A program made the position numbers and the translations under genes. 24,284 bases of DNA from a virus, in the IMG/VR virus record IMGVR_UViG_3300032516_000196, positions 1-24,284 of that record, one strand, 5' to 3'. Of the stretch, positions 4,470 through 22,969 are shown in pieces. Below the pieces are notes generated by a model. It was given only the letters and a program-made list of their open reading frames with translations, was not told where the DNA came from and did not search any database. Each line of letters begins with the position of its first letter. Positions within the stretch are counted from its first letter, which is position 1.

Positions 4470-4691
4470 TTAATTCAATTGTTCTTTAATCATGAGCCTG
4501 AGATCTCTTAACGTTATTATGTTAATTGTCTCATCAATATTATCATCAACATCATTGATGATATCTTGTGTTTCATCTTTATTATCATCGCTATTTGCCA
4601 TCATACGGCGCCCACCAGATGCGGCACGAAAACCAAAAACAGTTTCTTCAGTTGCCTTAATTTTGGGTCTACGAAATTTTCTCGTTGTCAT
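4470..4691 (-). CDS. Small charged protein of unknown function, 73 aa
   Basis: A 73-residue protein with a basic N-terminus (MTTRKFRRPKIKATEE), a GFRAASGGRRMM middle, a very acidic stretch (DDNKDETQDIINDVDDNIDE) and a C-terminal helix TLRDLRLMIKEQLN. The last part resembles the L(R/K)xxIKEE helix found at the N-terminus of several head-region proteins in this window, but here it is C-terminal. No good Shine-Dalgarno lies before ATG 4691; an internal ATG pair at residues 30-31 is an alternative start. The gene lies between the endolysin and the fiber genes. Function unknown; it may be a small virion or assembly protein. Confidence 0.6.
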   Translation of the reverse strand: MTTRKFRRPKIKATEETVFGFRAASGGRRMMANSDDNKDETQDIINDVDDNIDETINIITLRDLRLMIKEQLN

Positions 4692-7181: not shown

Positions 7182-7457
7182 TTATCCAATCCAAGATTTT
7201 TTTACGATGCTATTGACAACATCGACGTTGATCCTTTTTTCATTTTTTTCTTTTGTATTAGGCTCTGCGATCCCATCTATACTTGCTACTCTTAACACAT
7301 AACCTAATGATCTTGTTTTAACAAAGACATGTGATAACAATAATCCACACAATTTATTTAGATCTTTTGAGAAAAGACAACTTTTGTGGATTTTGTTATA
7401 TTTTAAATAATTTGTTGGTGCAATACGCCGGTCCAATTGTAACATAATCTCATTCAT
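7182..7457 (-). CDS. Hypothetical protein, 91 aa
   Basis: A 91-residue basic protein (MNEIMLQLDRRIAPTNYLKYN...) with two Cys, a hydrophobic strand-rich middle (LLLSHVFVKTRSLGYVLRVAS) and a Lys/Asn/Glu-rich C-terminal part (NTKEKNEKRINVDVV). Its ATG overlaps the upstream stop by four bases (ATGA). The family is not recognised. It lies in a chain of four small overlapping genes upstream of the methyltransferase-like gene, so it is probably expressed with them. Confidence 0.65.
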   Translation of the reverse strand: MNEIMLQLDRRIAPTNYLKYNKIHKSCLFSKDLNKLCGLLLSHVFVKTRSLGYVLRVASIDGIAEPNTKEKNEKRINVDVVNSIVKKSWIG

Positions 7458-7804
7458 TTTTTATTCTTGTTTTGTCTTTGGCGACTCACATGTGATCTTC
7501 GAGGATACACAACAGTTGAAAAATCTTCTTGCAATATTTCTTCTTTCAGAGAATCTGGATCTGTATCTCGTTCTTCAGTCTTTGACTCTAATATGAGTTT
7601 ATCTATTTTTTGTTGTTCTGATTTCATCCAGTTGGCTATTTGATCAGAACCATTATTTTTAAGTGCAGACAACAGATAAAAACGAACACGATCATACACA
7701 TTTGAAAGAATAACTCGATCATCTTTCATAGATTCAAATTTAGTGCTTACAAGCAATAAGTTATGTAAAGCCAATAGTTCTTTTGCGCTAAAATTAAAGT
7801 TCAT
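7454..7804 (-). CDS. Hypothetical protein, 116 aa
   Basis: A 116-residue protein with an all-helical N-terminal domain (FSAKELLALHNLLLVSTKFES) and a charged tail ending in a basic stretch (RRSHVSRQRQNKNKK) that could bind nucleic acid. It overlaps the upstream 200-aa gene by 11 bases in another frame and ends in an ATGA overlap with the next gene. The opening 50 residues have a layout like that of the upstream protein (MxF..K.(A/E)L.L...L, then a second helix ending FYLLSAL / DFILSEE), suggesting related N-terminal helical domains. No enzyme motif is seen. Confidence 0.65.
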   Translation of the reverse strand: MNFNFSAKELLALHNLLLVSTKFESMKDDRVILSNVYDRVRFYLLSALKNNGSDQIANWMKSEQQKIDKLILESKTEERDTDPDSLKEEILQEDFSTVVYPRRSHVSRQRQNKNKK

Positions 7805-8396
7805 AATTCACAATTTCTATTAAATCGTTTACTGGTAGTAGTTTTGTCCATTCCTTTGGAAATTTTCCAACTACGAATGTATGCCATTTTACTCCAGTAT
7901 CAATTTCACCAGTATCAATTTCACATAATGAAATTTGAGTTCCATTACGTTTAATATAACGGATTGGTCCAAGAACAAATGCCGCATTTGGATCATTCGC
8001 AATACTCACAAACAACATGACTTCACTTTTAACAGGGTCCTGATGGTGACCAAATCTTAATCTTAGATTCATTCCAAAATTTGCTGATGAACATTTTAAG
8101 GTTGTTGCATGACATTTTGTAAGTGCTCGGAGACTTTTTGTTTGGACATAATTTGTGACTTGATTTTCATCATCAATCTTTTGATCTTGCTCGTCACATT
8201 CCTCTTCGTCCTCTTCTTCTGAATCCTCTTCTGCCTTTCCATACTCATTGGTTTTTTCATTGTTTTCCTCAGATAAGATAAAATCTTCAACTTCATCACG
8301 TAGTTCAAGAACGTTTACGTCTATGCGCTCGGTAATTGCTTCATAATGAGATAAGATGGCAAATAAATCAAGCGCTTGTTTTTTTGTAAATTTCAT
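7794..8396 (-). CDS. Hypothetical acidic-linker protein, 200 aa
   Basis: A 200-residue protein in three parts: a helical N-terminus (MKFTKKQALDLFAILSHYEA), a very acidic linker at about residues 42-80 (including EEDSEEEDEEECDEQDQ), and a strand-rich C-terminal domain of about 110 residues (LRLRFGHHQDPVKSEVMLFV, VLGPIRYIKRNG, KWHTFVVGKFPKEW). A five-residue tandem duplication EIDTGEIDTG lies near residues 158-167. It is the first gene after the terminator at 8419-8444, so it may open a new unit, though only a weak Shine-Dalgarno (AAGAAAG) precedes it. The family is not recognised. Confidence 0.65.
   Translation of the reverse strand: MKFTKKQALDLFAILSHYEAITERIDVNVLELRDEVEDFILSEENNEKTNEYGKAEEDSEEEDEEECDEQDQKIDDENQVTNYVQTKSLRALTKCHATTLKCSSANFGMNLRLRFGHHQDPVKSEVMLFVSIANDPNAAFVLGPIRYIKRNGTQISLCEIDTGEIDTGVKWHTFVVGKFPKEWTKLLPVNDLIEIVNYEL
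7894..7923 (-). repeat. Tandem 15-bp duplication inside the 200-aa gene
   Basis: Two exact copies of a 15-bp unit (7894-7908 and 7909-7923) stand head to tail and keep the reading frame, encoding EIDTG twice. Perfect identity suggests a recent slippage event. Confidence 0.85.
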
Positions 8397-8896: not shown

Positions 8897-9616
8897 TCAG
8901 CCAAAACTGCCACCAAAGTTATCTGTATATCTATTAACAAAGTAATTGTATGCAGCATTATCAAGAACATCGTTAATTGTTGACTCATCATATCCCATTC
9001 TTTTTTGAAGAAGATCAATAAGATCTTCATGTCGAGCCATAAGTTCACCGGCCTCTGGTGTTCTATTAATTTCATATGAATAGTTTAAAGGATTCTCTCC
9101 TTTTCCTGGATAAACTGCAGCATCATCTGATTTTTCAGGCGTTTCTGGATGTTCATAATCATCTAGTTTGTAATGCTTCACGTCAACACGTTTTTGATAG
9201 CGAGCCCAAATTTTCTTTGCTAAGTCTGAAACTGAGTTCCTATCTGGAATCAAACCACCCTCCATTCCCATAACAATATCATATAAAAAGGGACCGTAAC
9301 CTTTAACGGCGGCAGTCATCTTTATCTCTGCTGCACCATTTGAAGGATGGCCAGGCTTATTTGTCGTGATCGTTCCTAAGATGAATTTTCCACTATTTAT
9401 TAACTTTGGCGGGATCTTTGGTTCATCGTCAGTTGATTTTGCAGCTTTTTCAAAAACTTTAAGTGCAACGTTTGGATCATACAAGACGTACGTTGACGTT
9501 GTATCATTACGCTTACGTAATAATGCAAGACCTTGAGACTTTACTTGTGAAGGCGAAATTGCTGCTTCAGACAGCATATTCACTAATATCCTAAGGTTAC
9601 AAACGCTTATCTTCAT
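8897..9616 (-). CDS. Phage protein with GNAT-like motif and N-terminal LSEA helix
   Basis: A 239-residue protein. Residues 1-19 (MKISVCNLRILVNMLSEAA) form an amphipathic helix ending in LSEA, like the N-termini of several neighbours. The body has YVLYDPN (43-49), ILGTITTNKPGHPSNGAAEIKM (79-100), then KGYGPFLYDIVMGM (105-118) followed by GGLIPDRNSVSDLAKKIWARY (120-140). KGYGPFLYD resembles the Q/R-x-x-G-x-G/A acetyl-CoA loop and helix of GNAT acetyltransferases, preceded as expected by beta strands, and I recall similar 'GYGP-LYD...GL-PDR...VS' proteins from other phages without a proven role. AGGT precedes the start. Acetyltransferase activity is inferred; the end (NYFVNRYTDNFGGSFG) is strand or coil. 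Because of its N-terminus it could be packaged into the head. Confidence 0.7.
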   Translation of the reverse strand: MKISVCNLRILVNMLSEAAISPSQVKSQGLALLRKRNDTTSTYVLYDPNVALKVFEKAAKSTDDEPKIPPKLINSGKFILGTITTNKPGHPSNGAAEIKMTAAVKGYGPFLYDIVMGMEGGLIPDRNSVSDLAKKIWARYQKRVDVKHYKLDDYEHPETPEKSDDAAVYPGKGENPLNYSYEINRTPEAGELMARHEDLIDLLQKRMGYDESTINDVLDNAAYNYFVNRYTDNFGGSFG

Positions 9617-9617
9617 A

Positions 9618-10007
9618 TCAACCTGGTTCCCAAATTCCTATGCTTGCATCTAGGAAAAATATTTTTCCCGTTCGTCTATCTGTCGCAAGAATAGATTCAC
9701 CATATTCACCATGATCGTATGATTCAAAATCAAACAATCTATCGATTGCGCTTAAGTCTCCTGCCTCATCATCATAACCTGCTGATCCAACAAGTTCATC
9801 AACTATTCCATCACCAAATCGTTCATCGATATCAGCTGCACTAATGCGTTCACCATCTTCTGATCCATCATCTTTAGGATACTCTTTCACCCAATCTTCA
9901 TCGTATGATGAGCCTGTGTCCATTGATGGGAACTCACGATCTTCACTTGCTTCTTTGATCACAGACTTAATAACAGAACGGAGTTCTTGCTGTGATATCT
10001 TCTTCAT
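9618..10007 (-). CDS. Acidic protein with N-terminal core-like helix, 129 aa
   Basis: A 129-residue acidic protein beginning MKKISQQELRSVIKSVIKEA, followed by an Asp/Glu/Ser/Gly-rich middle and a short folded end (ATDRRTGKIFFLDASIGIWEPG). I chose ATG 10007 over an in-frame ATG at 10055 because the shorter form begins with the helix shared by neighbouring proteins, and the longer one would overlap the 58-aa gene. Its ATG is 11 bases after that gene's stop and lacks a Shine-Dalgarno, so coupling is likely. One base separates it from the next ATG. Function unknown; an internal head or core protein is inferred. Confidence 0.7.
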   Translation of the reverse strand: MKKISQQELRSVIKSVIKEASEDREFPSMDTGSSYDEDWVKEYPKDDGSEDGERISAADIDERFGDGIVDELVGSAGYDDEAGDLSAIDRLFDFESYDHGEYGESILATDRRTGKIFFLDASIGIWEPG

Positions 10008-10018
10008 GTACTTAAGTA

Positions 10019-10195
10019 TTAGATACGTTTGAAAACAAAAGAACCACAACCCCATATTTTTGAGACGCTGGCTTCAAGTGCTATTTGTTTTTCACTCTTG
10101 GAGTCATGAGCACGGTATTTGAATCTATCGTAACGCAGCACGTTGTCAGTATACCAATAATCAATATCTTGGTAATGTAAACTATTTACAGTCAT
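10019..10195 (-). CDS. Small protein, 58 aa, directly after the capsid terminator
   Basis: A 58-codon frame starts at ATG 10195 (MTVNSLHYQDIDYWYTDNVL) and ends at TAA 10021-10019. AAGG lies six bases before the ATG. The protein is rich in aromatic and basic residues (RYDRFKYRAH, WGCGSFVFKRI) and does not look like random sequence. It fills an otherwise empty 260-base space between the capsid terminator and the acidic 129-aa gene. The family is not recognised, and its shortness makes the call moderate. Confidence 0.6.
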   Translation of the reverse strand: MTVNSLHYQDIDYWYTDNVLRYDRFKYRAHDSKSEKQIALEASVSKIWGCGSFVFKRI

Positions 10196-10266: not shown

Positions 10267-12174
10267 TCAGATTATGTTCATGTCGAGGACGGTGACGGTT
10301 CCGTAAAAATCAGATCGAACCATCTTTTTACCATATCTCGTCATTACACCCTTACGTGGCGTGAAATCTTCAGGTGCAAAGATCGTTGGTGTCACAATGA
10401 GTGGCACATACGGTGAGTACACATACCCGGTCTCAAGGTAGCTACCACCCTTGTAACCAATTAATACTCGGTTACGAGAGAAGTATGGATCCTTGTAAAC
10501 CGTGAAACGGTTAGAAACTGTACCGATTGCTTCCGCACCAATTGTGAACGGAGAACCAACCTGACCCTCGCCGTCAATTGAGTACTTCGGCTTGTATAGC
10601 ACGGAGCTCTCAAGAATCGTGCAGACGTCTGGTCCGGTAACAATGAAGTTAGCCGAGCCGCGGAGCGTCTTACGGTGAATCTGGTTTGCACAGTCGATCA
10701 TCGTTTCAACCAAGGTCTCGTACCATTCACGAACAGTTCCCGTGAATTGCGGTCCGATGCTAAGGCTTGAAGCAAGTTGCTGAGGAACACCCGTCAACTT
10801 GTTCACGAACTTACCTGGAGAACGGCTCCAGTAAAGGTTCGAGCCGTTTGCCTCGGTAACGAGGTCATTCAAGATCTCACGGTCAATTTCAAGAGCAATC
10901 TGTTCAGACAGAATACTCGTGAGTTCAACCTCGGCGTCCATTGAGTGGTACGCATTAAGATCCTGTGCCAACTCAGGTGACCAACGAGCACGGAGCTTGC
11001 GGGTTGTTGCTACGATAGCAAGAGACTCAATCTTGATGTCAATCTCTGGAATAGCTGGAGAAGCTGAAGAACCAAAGTCAGATTCGAATGAAGGAATCGT
11101 TAATACTGATCCAATTCCACCTGCTGTACCGTCAGTTGACTGTAGAACATCACCAATGGCCATGCTAAGCTTCTGCGTTGCAGAGTTCATCGATGATGCT
11201 ACTCCACCATTTGTAAGCCTGATAACCAATTGAATGTGTGAACCATTGAGAGGTGAAGGAGTAAACACTGAACCGTTCCAATCTCCACGCTTGTTCAAAC
11301 GACGAAGATTAAACAATCCCTTTCCTGATTGATATGCTTCACCCCATGAAGTTGCTCCACCATTTGACTGAAATCCAAAGAGAGCAATCTGCTCAACAGA
11401 GAGGAAGTCACCCTTTGGAATAACTGACACGATGCCAGAAACTGCAAAGTGAACGAACGTTACGTCAAGTAAGTTCAATCCAAGATCAACTTCAACCTGT
11501 GGATCGAATTGCAACATTCTTGCATTCGTACCTGAGAAATCAGTTGCTACTGTTAATGCAGAACCAGTTACGAATGCTTCGGCAGTACCCGTCCATGCAC
11601 CAATGTCAGCGTTTGATCCTGAGAGACCGAGCGTTCCAGAATGGACCTTGGTATAACCAACGTTAACTAGATCGTACATACCACCAGATGCGAGAGATCC
11701 TGATTGGATACCACGACCCGTTGGGTTGTTATAGATTGACTGACCACGCTGATACGTTTCAAACGTTGAAGTGTTGCTTAAGCCTGCGCCTGCTTCACCA
11801 CCCACGTTGGATCCATACGTGTAATCAAGATAAAAGATTAGGCCTGAAGGTAAGGACATTGGTTGAATCGAGACAAGCTCGTTCGCAACAAGTCCACCGA
11901 ATACCCTACGAACAATCGGGAATGCAATGTTCGAGAAACCTTGAACCTGGCCAGATGATCCCATTGCACCACCACCGGTTGATAGAGAGTTTGATTCTCT
12001 AAGGACCTGAGCTGCCTGGTTTTCCAAGAGCTGGGCCATCATTTCACGCTTGTTACCATCAAGTTGACGGAGCAAACCAGTGCGGCTCCACTTTTCGATT
12101 AGTCTTGCGCGTTCAGCTCCGACATGTCTTTCTTTGATGCCTGCTGAGAGTTGATCTATTGTAAAAAATTTCAT
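10267..12174 (-). CDS. Major capsid protein, T4 gp23 type
   Basis: This 635-residue protein forms the head shell. The N-terminus (MKFFTIDQLSAGI) is a helical prohead-targeting region; LLENQAAQVLRE (49-60) precedes the likely protease cut after E60, close to the place of the T4 gp23 cut (residue 65). FPIVRRVFGGLVANELVSIQ (about 85-104) and MSLPSGLIFYLDY are strongly gp23-like, as is the C-terminus (YKGGSYLETGYVYSPYVPL, KKMVRSDFYGTVTVLD). At 635 aa it is longer than T4 gp23 (521); extra Gly/Ser/Thr-rich sequence at about 125-370 probably makes an insertion domain on the capsid surface. An AAAGGA site lies eight bases before ATG 12174, and a terminator follows. Confidence 0.95.
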   Translation of the reverse strand: MKFFTIDQLSAGIKERHVGAERARLIEKWSRTGLLRQLDGNKREMMAQLLENQAAQVLRESNSLSTGGGAMGSSGQVQGFSNIAFPIVRRVFGGLVANELVSIQPMSLPSGLIFYLDYTYGSNVGGEAGAGLSNTSTFETYQRGQSIYNNPTGRGIQSGSLASGGMYDLVNVGYTKVHSGTLGLSGSNADIGAWTGTAEAFVTGSALTVATDFSGTNARMLQFDPQVEVDLGLNLLDVTFVHFAVSGIVSVIPKGDFLSVEQIALFGFQSNGGATSWGEAYQSGKGLFNLRRLNKRGDWNGSVFTPSPLNGSHIQLVIRLTNGGVASSMNSATQKLSMAIGDVLQSTDGTAGGIGSVLTIPSFESDFGSSASPAIPEIDIKIESLAIVATTRKLRARWSPELAQDLNAYHSMDAEVELTSILSEQIALEIDREILNDLVTEANGSNLYWSRSPGKFVNKLTGVPQQLASSLSIGPQFTGTVREWYETLVETMIDCANQIHRKTLRGSANFIVTGPDVCTILESSVLYKPKYSIDGEGQVGSPFTIGAEAIGTVSNRFTVYKDPYFSRNRVLIGYKGGSYLETGYVYSPYVPLIVTPTIFAPEDFTPRKGVMTRYGKKMVRSDFYGTVTVLDMNII

Positions 12175-14747: not shown

Positions 14748-15008
14748 TCAAACAACGTTAACAATTTTCTTAAGATAACGCTGCTTTGTTTCTCTGATCG
14801 TCTTAAGACGCTTAATCAAACGACCTTCTTCAACTTTAAGTGCCTTGACATAATCGATGTGCTTCTCTAATGCATCAGCATACTCATCAGCATTTGTTTC
14901 TTCAGTATCATCTGCTCGATCTTCAACATCTTCCATGTCGCCGAACTTAGCAACTTCTTCATCAATAATACGTTTGAGTAATTTTGGGGTGAGCTTAACT
15001 TGTGACAT
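14748..15008 (-). CDS. Small helical core-like protein, 86 aa
   Basis: An 86-residue protein: N-terminal helix LTPKLLKRIIDEEVAKFGD, an acidic run (MEDVEDRADDTEETNADEYA), and a C-terminal coiled coil (LKVEEGRLIKRLKTIRETKQRYLKK). Acidic-then-basic helical proteins of this size resemble prohead core proteins such as T4 gp67/gp68 in general character, and the gene is in the corresponding place between protease and capsid. No sequence match is claimed. AAAGG precedes ATG 15008. Confidence 0.65.
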   Translation of the reverse strand: MSQVKLTPKLLKRIIDEEVAKFGDMEDVEDRADDTEETNADEYADALEKHIDYVKALKVEEGRLIKRLKTIRETKQRYLKKIVNVV

Positions 15009-15061: not shown

Positions 15062-15493
15062 TTACGCTGATTTCTTCACTGGAGAATCGGCAAAAGCTAA
15101 ACTTGCCCATCGACCGGCACTTTCTTCACCAAATACTTGTTCTGGGTTTCCACTAAATTGTTCTTGTTGCGTCATGGCATGAACAGGAGCTCCGCCATCA
15201 CCACTAACCATCATAGTAGTTGCCGCTGTATCAGCAAAAATTGATTCCATTAACTTATTTCCACCAGCTTCACGCCTAATGGCTTCTTTTAATTGGTTTG
15301 GTGGTTGTTTTACTGGTGTGTCTAACGCGGGATCAAATCCTTGACGTGATCCCATTCTTGTTCTTTGTTCTGAAAATCCAGATATTTTTTGTGTTTGTGG
15401 TGCCAAAAATTTATTTGCACCAATTCCTTCTGATAGGATTTCAATCAAACACTGTTTAACAATTGTTTTTAATTCATCACGAGAAGTTTTCAT
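15062..15493 (-). CDS. Head-region protein with N-terminal LSEG helix, 143 aa
   Basis: A 143-residue protein beginning MKTSRDELKTIVKQCLIEIL followed by SEG, an amphipathic helix ending in an LxE protease-like site at residues 20-22. The rest is Gln/Gly/Ala-rich and probably partly disordered (PQTQKISGFSEQRTRMG, QQEQFSGNPEQVFGEESAG). AGGT precedes ATG 15493. It is one of five proteins here with such an N-terminus, which suggests targeting to the prohead interior. The upstream 90-base gap has no gene and no clear terminator. Confidence 0.65.
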   Translation of the reverse strand: MKTSRDELKTIVKQCLIEILSEGIGANKFLAPQTQKISGFSEQRTRMGSRQGFDPALDTPVKQPPNQLKEAIRREAGGNKLMESIFADTAATTMMVSGDGGAPVHAMTQQEQFSGNPEQVFGEESAGRWASLAFADSPVKKSA

Positions 15494-16026: not shown

Positions 16027-16638
16027 TCAATCACGATAAGACAAGACGTCATTTAGGATCCTGTCAATTCGATCTGTTTTATTAAAAAATCCTCGTAGTT
16101 CCTCTGGATTTATAGCTTTTCCTTCTGGTATCATGAAGGCTCCACTTGTAGACGGTTCACTTACAAAGTCCCAACAGATTAACTGAAAATCATCTTGTAC
16201 AACATGATAATCACCTTGTTTACGTGTTGAACCAACACCTCTTGAAGAGATACCAAGTTTAACGCCAGACTCAACTAAACCTTTAAGAATTGCTCCAGAG
16301 GGTGTCTTGTCTAAAACTTCAACTGTACCATACACTACGCCATTTTCAAGATATGCTTCACGTACAACATGAGAAACGTTCTTTAGATTAACAACTGAAC
16401 TTTCTGGATGATCAAGTTCTCCCATTGCTCTATTTTCAATGATAAACTTTTGATAATTTCTCACTTCACGCTCAAGGACTGTCATGGGATAAATTCTACC
16501 ATTTTGGTTAAGAGCATCAGCTTTTTGTAAAATTCCCTTCATTAGAATTTTACCTTCGTTTTTTTCTATCGATTCCTTGATCGTATCTGAAGTGTATTCA
16601 AATACCTCGTACGAGTTCAATAACTTAAGATCGTTCAT
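16027..16638 (-). CDS. Prohead maturation protease, T4 gp21 type
   Basis: This 203-residue serine protease should cut scaffold, core and capsid proteins during head maturation. Residues 44-51 give NQNGRIYP, the usual N-terminal signature of the family. GELDHPES (73-80) carries the catalytic His (H77) and LGISSRGVGS (128-137) the catalytic Ser (S131 or S132). The strand-rich core (NVSHVVREAYLENGVVYGTV) and the LICWDFVSEPS motif near 153-163 also fit. Length and residues look complete. The ATG directly abuts the stop of the upstream gene. The T4 enzyme cuts after Glu in (L/I)xE sites, which matters for several neighbours. Confidence 0.92.
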   Translation of the reverse strand: MNDLKLLNSYEVFEYTSDTIKESIEKNEGKILMKGILQKADALNQNGRIYPMTVLEREVRNYQKFIIENRAMGELDHPESSVVNLKNVSHVVREAYLENGVVYGTVEVLDKTPSGAILKGLVESGVKLGISSRGVGSTRKQGDYHVVQDDFQLICWDFVSEPSTSGAFMIPEGKAINPEELRGFFNKTDRIDRILNDVLSYRD

Positions 16639-17538: not shown

Positions 17539-20500
17539 TCAATCTTCCTCAACACTATTATCGCTTCCCTCAATGATAAGTACTTCATCTTCATCAGGAA
17601 GATCTTCATTGTTAACGTTTAATTCAATAGAGTCATCACTTTCTGTTAAAACACCAGATGAAAAACCTTGAGAGGTTGTTTTCATATCATTCTTAAATGA
17701 TGCCTGCATGTGTTTAAGCGAAGACCAAACATCAGGTGATAATCCTGAAAATGGAGACTTAACACGAGACGTAGATTCACCAAATGGATTTGAAACAACT
17801 GACTTAATAAAATCAGAATCAGTTGGATCTTTCATTGAACGACTATCAACACCAGTCATCTTAACAAAATCAGGCATATGTGTTTTTGAAGCTCCGTGTG
17901 TTCTATGACGAGAGTTATTATATAAAGCTCGTTTTAATTGAGGTTGAACTTTCACGGGTTTTTCAGAATCATTCATTGACGACATTTTAAGACTAAATTC
18001 TTCATCATCTTCATTATCATCAATAGATGTCAATAATTCTTTATTGTATTTTTCTTCTTCAGGTTCTTCACCTGCATTTTCTTCAGGAGGTATTTCACCA
18101 CCTGGTTCCTCATTTCCAGCGGCTTCCTCTTCCCCTCCGCCGCCTCCAAATAAATCATCTCCACCTCCACCAATATCATCTCCACCTTCGTCGCCGGTTG
18201 TACCAGCAGCCGCTGCTTCAATCTTAGCGTTCTGAACCTTTTCCTTCATTCTTTGTGCGTTGATCTTTTCAATCTCTTCTATGCTAAGACCCCAGATCTC
18301 TTGTTGAACAAATTCAGCACTTCCCATTCCTTCTGGCAAAGAGCCTCCAATTTCAAACTTTGCACGCCATAATTCAAGTTTTTGTTGTTGTGCAACAGTA
18401 GAAGGATTAGAAAGTCTTAATGTAAAATTTTGAAGATCTTCATTGTCAAATCCGTGAGCATACAAATGAATAATTGCAAGCTTGTTTAATTCAGCAATAA
18501 TTGTTTTTTGAATGACAGCAATTGTTCGTGAAAATCGAATATCTTCCTGCGCAAGAGTCGCCTTTGAAGATAACATTTCATCGTATCCAAGATATGCTCT
18601 TGGAATCTTTAATGCAGCAAACAACTTCTTTTGAATATACGCAACGTCCTCGACGGCTGCTGTGTTATTTCCACCTGCGAGAGTTTCAATACGCGTGCCG
18701 GAATCATTTCCTCTGACAGGAATAAAGTAGTCTTCGTCAACGCTAAGTGGGTTATAACGCAAGTCAACTCTTCCAGTGGTACTATCTACAACCTGGTTTG
18801 TTCTGAGATTTTTTCTTTGTTCTTCTATGTACATAGGTACATTTTCTGGTGGTACGTTTGCAACATCAACATAAAAAACTCTACGTTCAGGTGCTCTTAC
18901 AACACGATAAACTAACATCGCGTCTTCGATCAAAATCAATTGTCTCCAGATTCGTCTAGCAGGTTCAATGATGGAAGAACCATATGGCAAGAACATGTCA
19001 TTGCCAAGAAGTCTAAAATGTGTTACTTCCCAATTTTCAAGTGTACGATTTCCTAGTGTTACCCACCGATAACGAACAGCAAAAGGATCATCACGATCAT
19101 AATTTTCTTCACGCTCTATTTCATTAACAGGTATTGGAAATGAATTCACAACACCATATGTTGGTGAAACGTCATTATAAAGAAAGAAATCACCGTACTT
19201 ACACAGATTTCTTGCCCAGGATCTAAGATTAAATTCTACGTTCAATACGTTACAAAAAAGATCTTCTAAGTTTTCTTTGATCTTTTCATTTTCAGAATAA
19301 ACATGAAGAATTCGCCCTTTTTCATCTTGCGCACATGTTTCATCTGCATATATGTCTAACGCTGCCGCAAGCTCAGGTGTGTTGTGTGAGATAACACTGT
19401 CAGTTGCAAAGTTCTTATAACCATCAACGGTGAGATCGTAGAGGGGCAACACTCCAACGTACTCGACTGAAACGACCTTGCAATTAGCGTAAGATGTCTG
19501 GAACTCTGTATAGCGCTCATGGCCTTGCTGCGCGAGCCGAGAGATGATTGTATTCTTGTTGACGCCCAGCGTATCTGCGAGTCGAGGTAGCGTAAGACCA
19601 GGGGTGTAAGCATCGCAAATCTGTTTGAACGTTAGGTCGTTGCCATTGCTTCCCTTAGGGCGCCCGCCTGAACGAAATGTCGCCGGCTCCCAACCTAATT
19701 CAGTTCGTAACTGAATCCAACTTTTCACTAATTTTCTATCTAGGAATTTGTTGAAAACATTTACAGTACAACCCAATTTAATGCACAATGATTGCTTTGT
19801 ATCTGGCTCTTCGATCAAGGCTAAGATTTTTTCTATTGATAAATCACTAGTACGAAGAGATCTCTTATTTTCTAATAGTTCAGCACCTTGACGATACGCT
19901 TGTACAAAGCTATCATAGTTTGCAAATCCATGATCTGCGAGCCTAGAATAGATAACGTTACGATCAACATCAAGTGTTCGACATATTGAAATCAAATCAA
20001 AATCAAAACACTCACTAATCTCTAAAATACGACCAAATGTCACGTCGCGTCGAGCGGTCGGGGCATTATCTCGCATCCACGTTGCATGGTTCTTCTTGAA
20101 CTGCTCGATCCATTCATGATTCTCAGGTGCCCACTTCATGCCATTATTGATCGCGGCATGGTACGAATTGTGGTCAGAATTCGTCATGATCCGCAGATTT
20201 TCTGGCCTGTTATCTATTTTATCGAAATTGATGTGATGGACACACTCGTCTTCAGCAAGCTTGCGTCCCGCAATCCATTCAGCGATCAATTGGTGTTCCT
20301 TGGTCCAACCTTTGAACCTATCATCCATCGTGTAGACCCACGAGTAACCCTTTGTGCCTTCTTCAGCATTCGCAAACAGGTCTTTGCGGTAAAAAGGCAT
20401 CATTGCATCTCCAGGCTTCAGATCACCAATTTCTCGATAAGTTCCATCTCGCAACATTAATCGATGATTTGACGTACCGATTAATTCTTTACCATTATCA

Positions 20501-20937
20501 AACGTTACTTTCCACGCATGATCAGTTCTAGTTAAACGAGCTTGTTTTCCAATCGTAGGAACGATTTGTTTCTTTTCATGATCAAAAGAGTACACTATGA
20601 AGGTGTAATTTTGATCTTCTAGGCACCTACTAGCAAGCTCTCCAATCTCTACAAATCCATCAACAGTTGGTATAAGTGTTTGAAATGATACACAATATTC
20701 CATTTCTTGAAAATCTTGATACCTCATCATTCGCTCTGAGAGATTGTATGCATTTGATGTTATCGTCGCATACGTCGGCGACAAGGATTTTTGAAATAGA
20801 AGTGTTCCTGACGACTTTGCTTTATCAGCAATCGCAAGTGTAGTATCTAACCCTCGTATTTTTCTTTTAACAACGGGACCAGAGCGAAATAATGCGCTTA
20901 AACGTCTAAAAAGGCTTTTTGGTTCTTGTTTTGCCAT
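17539..20937 (-). CDS. Portal protein, T4 gp20 type, interrupted by an intein
   Basis: The frame encodes 1132 residues, of which 82-519 are an intein; the spliced portal would have 694 aa. The dodecameric portal is the DNA channel at one head vertex, docking the terminase and starting prohead assembly. Extein residues 1-81 end in MRYQDFQEMEY, and the second part resumes TPELAAALDIYADE, the usual gp20-family join. RAPERRVFYVDV (681-692) and KATLAQEDIRFSRTI (792-806), followed by QKTIIAELNKLAIIHLYAHGF, are strongly gp20-like. From about residue 880 the protein adds a Gly/Glu/Asp-rich low-complexity stretch and an acidic tail not usual in T4 gp20. GAGG lies upstream of ATG 20937. Splicing is needed for a functional portal. 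Confidence 0.93.
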   Translation of the reverse strand: MAKQEPKSLFRRLSALFRSGPVVKRKIRGLDTTLAIADKAKSSGTLLFQKSLSPTYATITSNAYNLSERMMRYQDFQEMEYCVSFQTLIPTVDGFVEIGELASRCLEDQNYTFIVYSFDHEKKQIVPTIGKQARLTRTDHAWKVTFDNGKELIGTSNHRLMLRDGTYREIGDLKPGDAMMPFYRKDLFANAEEGTKGYSWVYTMDDRFKGWTKEHQLIAEWIAGRKLAEDECVHHINFDKIDNRPENLRIMTNSDHNSYHAAINNGMKWAPENHEWIEQFKKNHATWMRDNAPTARRDVTFGRILEISECFDFDLISICRTLDVDRNVIYSRLADHGFANYDSFVQAYRQGAELLENKRSLRTSDLSIEKILALIEEPDTKQSLCIKLGCTVNVFNKFLDRKLVKSWIQLRTELGWEPATFRSGGRPKGSNGNDLTFKQICDAYTPGLTLPRLADTLGVNKNTIISRLAQQGHERYTEFQTSYANCKVVSVEYVGVLPLYDLTVDGYKNFATDSVISHNTPELAAALDIYADETCAQDEKGRILHVYSENEKIKENLEDLFCNVLNVEFNLRSWARNLCKYGDFFLYNDVSPTYGVVNSFPIPVNEIEREENYDRDDPFAVRYRWVTLGNRTLENWEVTHFRLLGNDMFLPYGSSIIEPARRIWRQLILIEDAMLVYRVVRAPERRVFYVDVANVPPENVPMYIEEQRKNLRTNQVVDSTTGRVDLRYNPLSVDEDYFIPVRGNDSGTRIETLAGGNNTAAVEDVAYIQKKLFAALKIPRAYLGYDEMLSSKATLAQEDIRFSRTIAVIQKTIIAELNKLAIIHLYAHGFDNEDLQNFTLRLSNPSTVAQQQKLELWRAKFEIGGSLPEGMGSAEFVQQEIWGLSIEEIEKINAQRMKEKVQNAKIEAAAAGTTGDEGGDDIGGGGDDLFGGGGGEEEAAGNEEPGGEIPPEENAGEEPEEEKYNKELLTSIDDNEDDEEFSLKMSSMNDSEKPVKVQPQLKRALYNNSRHRTHGASKTHMPDFVKMTGVDSRSMKDPTDSDFIKSVVSNPFGESTSRVKSPFSGLSPDVWSSLKHMQASFKNDMKTTSQGFSSGVLTESDDSIELNVNNEDLPDEDEVLIIEGSDNSVEED
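19381..20694 (-). mobile_element. HNH-homing intein inside the portal gene, 438 aa
   Basis: Intein residue 1 is Cys (portal residue 82), starting CVSFQTLIPTVDGFVEIGEL (block A). Block B is GTSNHRLML, with the TxxH motif at T74-H77. The C-terminal blocks are VEYVGVLPLYDLTVDGYKNF and VISHN, with His437-Asn438, and Thr is the first residue of the second extein, so all splicing residues of a class 1 intein are there. An HNH nuclease sits at 150-180 (ECVHHINFDKIDNRPENL, then SDHNSYH). Residues about 217-400 hold three helix-turn-helix-like repeats (for example LDVDRNVIYSRLADHGF and LGVNKNTIISRLAQQGH), probably for target DNA recognition. Both splicing and homing parts look intact. Confidence 0.93.
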
Positions 20938-21022: not shown

Positions 21023-21316
21023 TCACTGGTGCTTGATAGCCTTAAGTGATACCTTTTTTGGTTCTGCTTTTTGCTTAGCAACGTATGAACCCGGAGAGCT
21101 CACCATATCTTCTAATGTTTTTTCAAGTTGATTTATATGAGGTGTTACAGCATTAATTGCTGAATGAGGTGCTGTTTCTTTAAACGCTTCTACTGCAGCG
21201 AGTAATTTGCTAGCACCATTAACGACATCTCTAATACCAGCATGATCAACTGCTTCGCTAAGATCATAAATCTCTTCTTTGATTATTTTACGTAAATCAT
21301 TAATATTGATCGTCAT
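21023..21316 (-). CDS. Small helical protein with N-terminal LSEA helix, 97 aa
   Basis: A 97-residue protein beginning MTININDLRKIIKEEIYDLS then EA, an amphipathic helix ending in an LxE site. The rest is helical (ASKLLAAVEAFKETAPHSAI, HINQLEKTLEDMV) with a basic tail (KQKAEPKKVSLKAIKHQ). GAGG precedes ATG 21316. It lies between terminase and portal, where T4 has sheath and tube genes. Function unknown; the N-terminus suggests a core or head-targeted protein. The 85 bases that follow have no gene; they contain AT-rich strings but no promoter I can defend. Confidence 0.7.
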   Translation of the reverse strand: MTININDLRKIIKEEIYDLSEAVDHAGIRDVVNGASKLLAAVEAFKETAPHSAINAVTPHINQLEKTLEDMVSSPGSYVAKQKAEPKKVSLKAIKHQ

Positions 21317-21346: not shown

Positions 21347-22969
21347 TCATTTGTATAACCACGTAAAGTCACTAAGATCTGCATTTCTTACTTGTGATGC
21401 ATGACGTGGTCTATGAGCGGTATGTGGGTTGAATCCTTTGATTTGTGGATTAACAAGTGGTTTAATTACGTTAATGTCATTTGGCATCTGTGAAGAATCA
21501 CGACGAGAAACTGTAGTAGCTTTTAAAATTGCATATGACATTGCAACAGCTTGATCATTCAATCCAGCATTGCCTTCTACAAGCCAACATCCAATTGCTA
21601 AGCTCATAATCAAGTCATCATAACTATCTTTTGATGCTTGTGGTTTATTTCCTTGCCATATGAATGCTTGTAATTGATCATACAATCTTTGAGAATAACT
21701 TTTAAGTTGTTTATTTCTTATGAGTTCTTCTAATTTTGTTAATATTTGAACTCGCGTTTTTTGATTTGTTGGAAATCCAGGATTTTCTGTTTGATCAATT
21801 GGAATGTATGCGAATGGATCACCTTTATGACCATGATAATACAATTGTTTATATCCAATGGTGTCACGTAATTTTGTACAAACAAAATATCCAAATGTGT
21901 TATTTTCCGGAATGATTAGTGAATTGTTATACTTTTTCCCCCAGTCGGCCAACATATCGGCCAATTTTTCTGGTGGAACTTTACCCATATATTCCGCGGC
22001 GACTTCACTATCTTTCGTGTCAATGATATGAAATGTAGAAAAATCTCTTGCATCGCCACGGGCAACGTCAGCTGAAATAACATATGAACGTCCAGGAATT
22101 GGATGTGACCAAATCCAAACATTGTTATCGTGACCTGATTTCTCAATTGGACTAACAATCTGAACTCTTAGATTTTCAAGATCTTCTGGTTGTAGGAAGG
22201 TATCACCAGACGTTAAAAAGTCACACAAATATTCTTGTGCAATTTCACGTTTTGAAAAGCCTTTTGTTTCATTCACAAACCATGCCTGATCATGTTCAGG
22301 ATGAACTGTCCAAGGTAATCTTATTGCATTAAATTCATTAACACCAGCTTCAGCCTCTGTCCATAAGCGATAATATTGTCCACCAATTCCTTTTGGAGAT
22401 GACAATATTATCGCACGACCACCTGTACTTACGGTGGGATATAAACCAGTCCAAATTTCATCAAAATCTCTAATATGTGCAGCTTCGTCAATAATCAACA
22501 AAGATAATGCTTCTGAACGACCAGCATCATCAGAAGTTGGAACTGCTTTAATTTGTGAACCGTTACTGAATCCAATCTGTTGTTTAGATGGCTCAAATCT
22601 TGGTAATAACAACCATTTTGGTAAGCTTTGCAAAATCACAGCCACTTTTTTAATAAAATTTTGTGCTGTTGCTAATTTAGTAGCGATAACAAGAATATTT
22701 TTGTCCTTTTGAAAGATTGCTACCCATGTTGCATATGCAGCACTAATTGTTGATATCCCAAGTTGTCTAGATTTTAAAATGATATTAAATCGATGATCAA
22801 CAAATGATTGTACGCAATCATCTTGAAAATCATACGTTTCAAATAAAATTGTTCCACGCGTGGGGTGTTGAATCTTTGCGTAATTTTTTATGAAATAAGC
22901 AGGATCTTTACCGCACTTAATGATCTCTTTTACTTGTTCTTCTCGAGAAAATGTATTACTCGAAGCCAT
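21347..22969 (-). CDS. Terminase large subunit, T4 gp17 type
   Basis: The 540-residue packaging motor ATPase and headful nuclease. The ATPase half has Walker A KSRQLGIST (66-74), Walker B LLIIDEA (157-163, catalytic E162) and coupling motif ILSSPKG (188-194). The RNase H-like nuclease half has SADVARGDARDFS (D301), LIIPENNTFG (E355) and SYDDLIMSLA (D451/D452), the three acidic positions expected. Length is a little under T4 gp17 (610). AGGA lies six bases before ATG 22969. It follows the 128-aa gene by three bases. It moves DNA through the portal encoded just downstream. No intein or intron interrupts it. Confidence 0.95.
   Translation of the reverse strand: MASSNTFSREEQVKEIIKCGKDPAYFIKNYAKIQHPTRGTILFETYDFQDDCVQSFVDHRFNIILKSRQLGISTISAAYATWVAIFQKDKNILVIATKLATAQNFIKKVAVILQSLPKWLLLPRFEPSKQQIGFSNGSQIKAVPTSDDAGRSEALSLLIIDEAAHIRDFDEIWTGLYPTVSTGGRAIILSSPKGIGGQYYRLWTEAEAGVNEFNAIRLPWTVHPEHDQAWFVNETKGFSKREIAQEYLCDFLTSGDTFLQPEDLENLRVQIVSPIEKSGHDNNVWIWSHPIPGRSYVISADVARGDARDFSTFHIIDTKDSEVAAEYMGKVPPEKLADMLADWGKKYNNSLIIPENNTFGYFVCTKLRDTIGYKQLYYHGHKGDPFAYIPIDQTENPGFPTNQKTRVQILTKLEELIRNKQLKSYSQRLYDQLQAFIWQGNKPQASKDSYDDLIMSLAIGCWLVEGNAGLNDQAVAMSYAILKATTVSRRDSSQMPNDINVIKPLVNPQIKGFNPHTAHRPRHASQVRNADLSDFTWLYK

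Follow-up and report, generated by a model that had tools for sequence, protein, structure and literature searches.

The gene examined here (Table 1) belongs to an uncultivated T4-like phage and lies in a virus record of 24,284 bases, the whole of which was analysed and is called the window below. It is assigned to the minus strand, since the plus strand of 8897–9616 is interrupted by 18 stops. The open reading frame from 9616 to 8897 described in the initial annotation, the loop string KGYGPFLYDIVM (residues 105–116, K105 to M116) and the LSEA motif (residues 15–18) were all confirmed. A copy of the gene on another contig (L002) differs at two of 720 nucleotides, and both substitutions alter amino acids.

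The window carries a T4-type head cluster on its minus strand, including, at the place of the scaffold, a long acidic protein that has no family match. From their sequences, 21347–22969 is read as TerL and 17539–20937 as a portal gene with an insert. This insert occupies approximately residues 82–510 of the portal-like protein (minus strand), starts with CVSFQTLIPTVDGFVEIGELA, ends with SVISHNT and, by its sequence, looks like an intein. Proteins of L005, L021 and L033 match the portal-like protein near residues 66–225 and again after about residue 490, and those of L019, L070 and L097 match it only after residue 520. The capsid gene is followed downstream by a small acidic protein, for which neither PHROGs nor Pfam gave a family match, and then by the gene under study. 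The order of portal, capsid gene and family member recurs in L050 and L055, where the identity to the window is 39–40% for the family members, 68–70% for the capsid proteins and 79.5–81.5% for the proteases. Two adjacent proteins downstream of the gene under study (7454–7804 and 7794–8396, minus strand) have somewhat similar starts, MNFNFSAKELLALHNLLL and MKFTKKQALDLFAIL, and no Pfam match over the cut-off. A 73-residue protein at 4470–4691 (minus strand) has the C-terminus ITLRDLRLMIKEQLN, which resembles the leader helix described below.

Table 1. Features of the window; a slash marks a proposed or candidate cut.
Feature	Position	Strand	Remarks
GNAT-like protein gene	8897..9616	minus	ATG at 9616, stop at 8897; 239 aa + stop
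Proposed capsid-targeting propeptide MKISVCNLRILVNMLSE, residues 1–17	9566..9616	minus	Low model confidence; tag statistics
Proposed gp21-type cut site LSE/A, residues 15–18	9563..9574	minus	L/I-x-E rule; enrichment; P1 Glu in 54/56
Predicted GNAT-like core, residues 29–186	9059..9532	minus	Model, Foldseek, VIA
Proposed acyl-CoA loop and start of helix 3, KGYGPFLYD, residues 105–113	9278..9304	minus	Invariant columns; strand-loop-helix in model
Conserved D-R, S, A, W segment DRNSVSDLAKKIW, residues 125–137	9206..9244	minus	Family alignments
Two added C-terminal helices in the model, residues 190–235	8912..9049	minus	No counterpart in the L044 model
Neighbouring acidic protein; MKKISQQELRSVIKSVIKE/AS after likely codon-17 start (10007)	9618..10055	minus	Beside the target gene in L002 too
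gp23-type major capsid protein	10267..12174	minus	PF07068, E 1.8e-74
Candidate maturation site of the capsid protein, LRE60/S	11992..12003	minus	Alignment with relatives
Tag-like head-cluster protein MSQVKLTPKLLKRIIDEE	14748..15008	minus	Homologues in L050, L055
Tagged head-cluster protein MKTSRDELKTIVKQCLIEILSE/G	15062..15493	minus	L050 homologue begins MKMTRSDMKMLVKECLLEILNE/G
gp21-type prohead protease, proposed cutter	16027..16638	minus	PF03420, E 3.3e-23; phrog_207, E 3.7e-45
Tagged small protein MTININDLRKIIKEEIYDLSE/A	21023..21316	minus	No Pfam match

A Large Family of Mostly Viral Proteins

By sequence, the protein belongs to a large, undescribed and mostly viral family. A DNA pattern for GYGPxxYD matched 50 stretches of viral contigs, and the same protein family is encoded at 47 of these loci; L015, L024 and L040 match the pattern and are not family members. 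Loci from two further scans and one genome-contig locus were added, and the family profile was then run over 111 loci, which gave 118 distinct domain rows from 73 loci, near-duplicates included. The signature of the family is G-x-G-P-L-L-Y-D, followed by D-R-x-x-V-S-x-x-A-x-x-V-W-x-Y-Y-x-x-x-R-x-D-V. An alignment of 34 members is invariant at G106, Y107, G108, P109, Y112, D113, A133 and W137, so that GYGP as a chance motif is ruled out. In all, 13 positions stand out across sequences 20–39% identical to the window protein, eight being invariant and five nearly so; most of them lie near the loop and helix 4.

Searches beyond the viral contigs returned little. One peptide pattern matched a single locus among the genome contigs, L088. 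The contig, 306 kb long and catalogued with a marine Methylococcaceae MAG, encodes four or more tagged family ORFs; it is probably a phage. When six proteins (P0001, L028, L008, L042, L047 and L103) were run by tblastn against 50,697 phage records, with E limits between 0.01 and 1, zero matches were obtained; a search with the 65-residue core gave nothing better than E 0.3, and blastn with L013 gave zero matches. The L030 query matched 23 records, each time by its N-terminal 46 residues, an NTase-linked stretch. Given the single genome-contig locus and the empty tblastn searches, the family is known only from uncultivated viruses and the L088 contig. For the window protein itself, Pfam and PHROGs gave only sub-threshold or weak matches to unrelated families (UBA_2, IF2_N and a tail-fibre profile), which were set aside as its identity, and a search of the PDB by sequence gave no match. 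Across 34 family members, two Pfam GNAT models each matched one protein, with E of about 1e-3. A limited text search with chosen terms found no literature on the family or its leader in such phages.

A Predicted GNAT-Like Fold

The initial annotation had called the protein GNAT-like. The structure prediction and the comparison with GNAT enzymes that it suggested were carried out, and the predicted fold is not unlike GNAT. An AlphaFold model of the window protein, computed with the 34-sequence alignment, reached pLDDT 88.2 and pTM 0.85, and a model of a minimal, 187-residue member (L044), computed from 56 sequences, reached pLDDT 89.0. In VIA, the best match of the window model is NatD (Z 6.7, rmsd 3.8, 113 aligned), and 49 of the 50 matches listed are acetyltransferases or GNAT toxins, as judged by title and known identity; the remaining one, 7byy, is titled 'bacterial toxin', which does not tell its fold. 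The best match of the L044 model is GCN5 (Z 8.9, rmsd 3.4, 116 aligned). All 50 matches listed for it were read as GNAT-superfamily folds, to which we take the C-terminal domains of ICL2 and Rv1916, the AHL synthases and the MYST enzymes to belong.

The Foldseek searches against the PDB were weaker, as neither model had a match with E < 0.001. The KKT23 acetyltransferase came first with both the window model (E 0.025, probability 0.92) and the L044 model (E 0.006). With the former, GNATs were mixed with unrelated folds from rank 4 on; with the latter, GNATs made up most of the 50 matches listed, together with a few unrelated folds. When the window model was compared with viral structure models, the best match was a 237-residue protein (E 6e-9), and giant-virus proteins named GNAT stood at ranks 3 and 6. 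The family profile A2 was also compared by hhalign with a GNAT of L102, chosen because Pfam recognises it (PF00583, E 1e-7), and gave E 9.8e-5 and a probability of 58% over 65 columns. The Foldseek E values above 0.001, the unrelated folds further down and the Z scores below 9 would suit the explanation that the likeness reflects a widespread arrangement rather than homology to GNATs. This explanation appears far-fetched, since no other fold was recognised among the 100 VIA matches listed for the two models (the title of 7byy being uninformative) and the stretch over which the profile aligns with the Pfam-recognised GNAT comprises the loop, helix 3 and strand 5. As both models align best with GNAT structures, the GNAT-like call stands and the predicted fold is almost certainly of this type; two predicted structures and the profile comparison bear it out, with Foldseek contributing less.

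The consensus of GNAT motif A is Q/R-x-x-G-x-G/A. In the window model, K105 and G106 sit between a strand (96–103) and a helix (107–119), the place expected of an acetyl-CoA loop. The profile comparison places G-x-G at G106-Y107-G108, and a register with the final G/A on a leucine was dropped. G-x-G is present in 56 of 56 rows of the family alignment, and 40 of them have Ala in place of Q/R. The acetyl-CoA loop and helix that the initial annotation had seen in this string are thus favoured by the strand-loop-helix placement and the invariance of the motif, and disfavoured by the divergence of the loop, mostly Ala for Q/R. The usual GNAT topology has helices 1 and 2 between strands 1 and 2. Both models have no helices between the first two strands, and the window model has helices 48–61 and 70–74 between the second and third. 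With its diverged loop and no helices between the first two strands, the protein is, as far as its sequence tells, not a canonical GNAT enzyme.

The Leader and Its Proposed Cut Site

The passages of PMC9026906 on T4 heads describe that gp21 cleaves after L/I-x-E, that gp22 is cleaved at a Glu-Ala bond, and that the internal proteins carry propeptides of 10–19 residues, which are able to target foreign proteins into the head. The candidate propeptide of the window protein fits this rule, being 17 residues long and ending in LSE with Ala next. Residues 1–20 lie outside the confident fold: the pLDDT averages are 48 for residues 1–10 and 63 for residues 11–20, and 91–98 for the four blocks up to residue 60. 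A helix modelled at residues 5–15 leads into LSEA, in keeping with the LSEA helix noted earlier at the start of the protein.

Such a site recurs across the family. Of 83 family domains, 52 have the strict pattern [LI]xE[ASG] upstream and the other 31 lack it there; none of the 83 downstream stretches of equal length has it, and 500 shuffles gave 9.0 ± 2.7 with a maximum of 18. The looser [LI]xE was found upstream in 73 and downstream in seven, against 41.0 in shuffles. The 83 domains are non-redundant (94 rows were merged to 84, and one more was lost to a short flank), and the count leaves out 30 rows (including duplicates) that did not match the loop regular expression. Some of the rows left out carry the strict site (LKES in L091, L101 and L107), and others carry TNEAA, which the strict pattern misses. 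L069, L073 and L075 (minus strand) hold arrays of strongly diverged members, many with another leader, MKLYPxxYxNEA or similar.

Among 38 implied propeptides listed, 30 are 11–20 residues long. Five have 4–6 residues; for some of these, including that of the window protein, the count starts at an internal Met. Those of 22, 30 and 51 residues are outliers. The P1 Glu is kept in 54 of the 56 rows of A2, which were chosen from 73 references, the 17 left out including both L060 copies, which have no site. The cutting rule is further supported by aligned sites in the capsid proteins. At the position of LRE60/S of the window, L050, L042, L139 and L135 have LKE or LRE with S, N, A and A next, and L005 has INE/S; LEE and IEE, each with A next, stand there in two alignments that are weaker (E 0.07 and 0.6).

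A Leader Shared with Other Cargo and Linked to the Protease

Three window proteins outside the family, encoded at 21023, 15062 and 9618, have the same type of N-terminus as the protein under study. A leader profile trained on 44 family leaders, with a cut of 10 bits, matched 128 of 3490 non-family ORFs (86 of them distinct), compared with three of 3490 shuffled ones. Ten tagged proteins, picked by eye as recognisable, were run against Pfam, one of which (from L031) scored 9.6 and thus below the cut of 10. Four were assigned over the cut-off, namely a poly(A) polymerase, a NUDIX protein, an RNase T-type exonuclease and a DUF2608 (HAD-like) protein. No Pfam family was found for the other six, three of which are ART-like by eye. 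The tagged poly(A) polymerase of L092 (10719–12341) has a C-terminal part that is GNAT-like by eye, and a second leader-like segment, VRKLVRSVLLAE, lies between the two parts.

The occurrence of the leader also goes with that of the gp21-type protease. Of the 541 ORFs in five records with the protease, 31 scored at least 10; of the 453 in three large records without it, one did (Fisher p 7e-8), with the training loci of the tested records excluded and seven family ORFs removed; the eight records were hand-chosen, and their GC is 0.34–0.46 in the protease-positive and 0.42–0.48 in the protease-negative group. Among the 13 family-bearing records of at least 150 kb, [LI]xE precedes the domain in ten of ten with the protease and in none of three without it (L041, L060 and L100), in a comparison made after seeing the data and on records that lack independence, L101 and L107 being closely related. 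A, S or G follows the site in eight of the ten, and L014 and L070 meet the looser rule only. Inner sites flagged in one L060 copy and in L041 were not counted, as they lie inside the domain, at most 45 residues from the loop or behind it. L041 has a gp23-type match (E 1e-17). In protease-negative L100 (398 kb; 2170–2688), the leader segment is kept as YLTGGAKRPEDL, against LxEAAxxPxDL in the family, and Gly stands at the position of the cut-site Glu, in this one case.

The protease was detected in 19 of 50 and four of 12 records, many of which are fragments. The tagged records L089, L094 and L110 (91–101 kb) have neither protease nor gp23 detected, probably because they are fragments. An HK97-type protease as a substitute was rejected, as PF04586 was found in none of ten records without a detected gp21-type protease.

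One could argue that LSEA simply belongs to the opening structural helix of a GNAT-like domain that stays in the cytoplasm, and that nothing is packaged. The segment after the Glu, EAAxxPxDL, is indeed conserved and abuts the domain, also within fusions. Yet unrelated proteins of the same genomes share the N-terminus, leaders are nearly missing from the three protease-negative records, L100 retains the segment without its Glu, and the window model gives residues 1–20 low confidence. We therefore regard this explanation as quite improbable, and a structural helix as the sole role of LSEA was rejected on the leader-protease comparison and L100. The shared cargo, the window examples, the protease link and L100 support the sequence-based reading that the N-terminus is a targeting tag and not a part of the domain. 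The head-targeting role first proposed for this N-terminus is thus backed by the site enrichment, the shared leader and the protease association, which together make packaging and cleavage well supported by inference.

Paralogue Arrays, Fusions and the Function of the Cargo

Family members are often multiplied or joined to other domains. A 273-kb record (L059) has nine family ORFs at one locus, one member of which is fused to PAP2 (E 2e-12), and L047 has four family domains across three ORFs. In L049, the domain is fused to an NTase-like region (PF01909, E 0.0045, below the cut-off), and similar NTase-like fusions were recognised by eye in L030 and L023. Several fusions have an L-x-E-type site inside the chain, before the family domain, as if they were precursors to be cut apart. 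A 1383-residue ORF of L102 (3227–5233) has an N-terminus that is ART-like by eye, three family copies, two Pfam GNATs and an HNH motif, with LTEA or similar ahead of several domains.

Two further explanations accept packaging and differ in what the protein does. The first is that the packaged and injected protein is a non-enzyme, a binder with a GNAT fold whose contact with host defence enzymes blocks them. Such a role would resemble that of the T4 internal proteins IPI–III, which, in the passages of PMC12373910 that concern them, carry a packaging leader, are injected and block GmrSD enzymes. The departure of the loop from the GNAT consensus is in its favour, and arrays of diverging paralogues such as that of L059 would suit a set of inhibitors. 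On the other hand, 13 invariant or nearly invariant positions at 20–39% identity are what is expected of a catalytic or cofactor site, and the binder is considered unlikely. The second is that the protein acts in the prohead or on DNA, by capsid acylation or a Mom-like base modification. The gene adjoins head genes, and Mom-type GNATs occur in jumbo phages, according to the part of PMC7824862 that treats them. However, a DNA modifier needs no packaging into every head, and the arrays and fusions with PAP2, NTase-like and ART-like parts suit effectors better, which makes this role very improbable.

Proposed Mechanism

We slightly favour the reading that the tagged GNAT-like protein is packaged, cut, injected and used to acylate a host molecule, and its steps differ in strength. 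Residues 1–17 would be a propeptide of the T4 internal-protein type, whose amphipathic helix would hold the protein in the prohead core. The gp21-type protease would then cleave after Glu17 and free the GNAT-like protein inside the head. Packaging and cleavage, based on the likeness to the T4 system and the leader statistics, are quite likely. The later steps are drawn from T4 IPI–III and Rac. The mature protein probably enters the cell along with the DNA. It may well perform acyl transfer, with acyl-CoA bound at the KGYGP loop. Action on the host is more tentative; in that case, the acyl group would most likely be used on a host molecule in the first minutes, and this molecule would probably be a protein, i.e., a defence or transcription component.

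A broader reading, for and against which we would place equal weight, is that uncultivated T4-like large phages carry a head arsenal of tagged enzymes, with one leader loading all of them. The cargo would comprise arrays of paralogous GNAT-like acyltransferases together with ART-like, NUDIX, poly(A)-polymerase, exonuclease and other proteins, and the head protease would cut some of these out of fused precursors, at [LI]xE sites within the chain. If this is true, the injected proteome of a phage could be read from sequence via its leader. To our knowledge, targets have been established for few injected phage proteins. A GNAT-like, tagged and fast-diverging family with up to nine members in one locus hints at a contest with the host over protein acylation or over an enzyme that its members would block. 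The question is testable, because the leader predicts both the particle proteins and the positions at which they are cut.

Comparison with Known Systems

The closest parallel is T4 IPI–III, as far as the cited passages describe them. Both systems have a short N-terminal helix, L/I-x-E before the mature part, a gp21-type protease and a gp23-type capsid, and in both, one leader is found on unrelated cargo. The T4 cargo consists of host-nuclease inhibitors, whereas here it is a GNAT-fold family with many paralogues. Packaging is established for T4 IPI–III, and it is deduced here from sequence.

With the GCN5-related superfamily, the family shares the predicted strand-loop-helix core and the G-x-G loop, and NatD, GCN5 and KKT23 are nearest by structure. 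It differs in having mostly Ala for Q/R and an invariant G-x-G-P-x-x-Y-D, and Pfam barely detects it.

Injected GNATs were predicted earlier among the polyvalent proteins (PMC5512222). In the sections of that paper concerned with them, these are phage GNATs near structural genes, ART-linked and predicted to be delivered together with the DNA, which is similar to what is proposed here. They are described as RimI-like, and by this description the present family is set apart by its own signature and its T4-type leader. Polyvalent proteins also have several effector domains per chain, whereas the window protein has one, and some of its relatives are fused. Rac, the GNAT of phiKMV, is said in the relevant part of PMC7824862 to acetylate the host RNA polymerase; compared by description, it is likewise a phage GNAT directed at the host, in an account that makes no mention of packaging. 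Set against these systems, the GNAT-like family, its amplification and the T4-type leader that it shares with a wide cargo in uncultivated large phages appear to be new.
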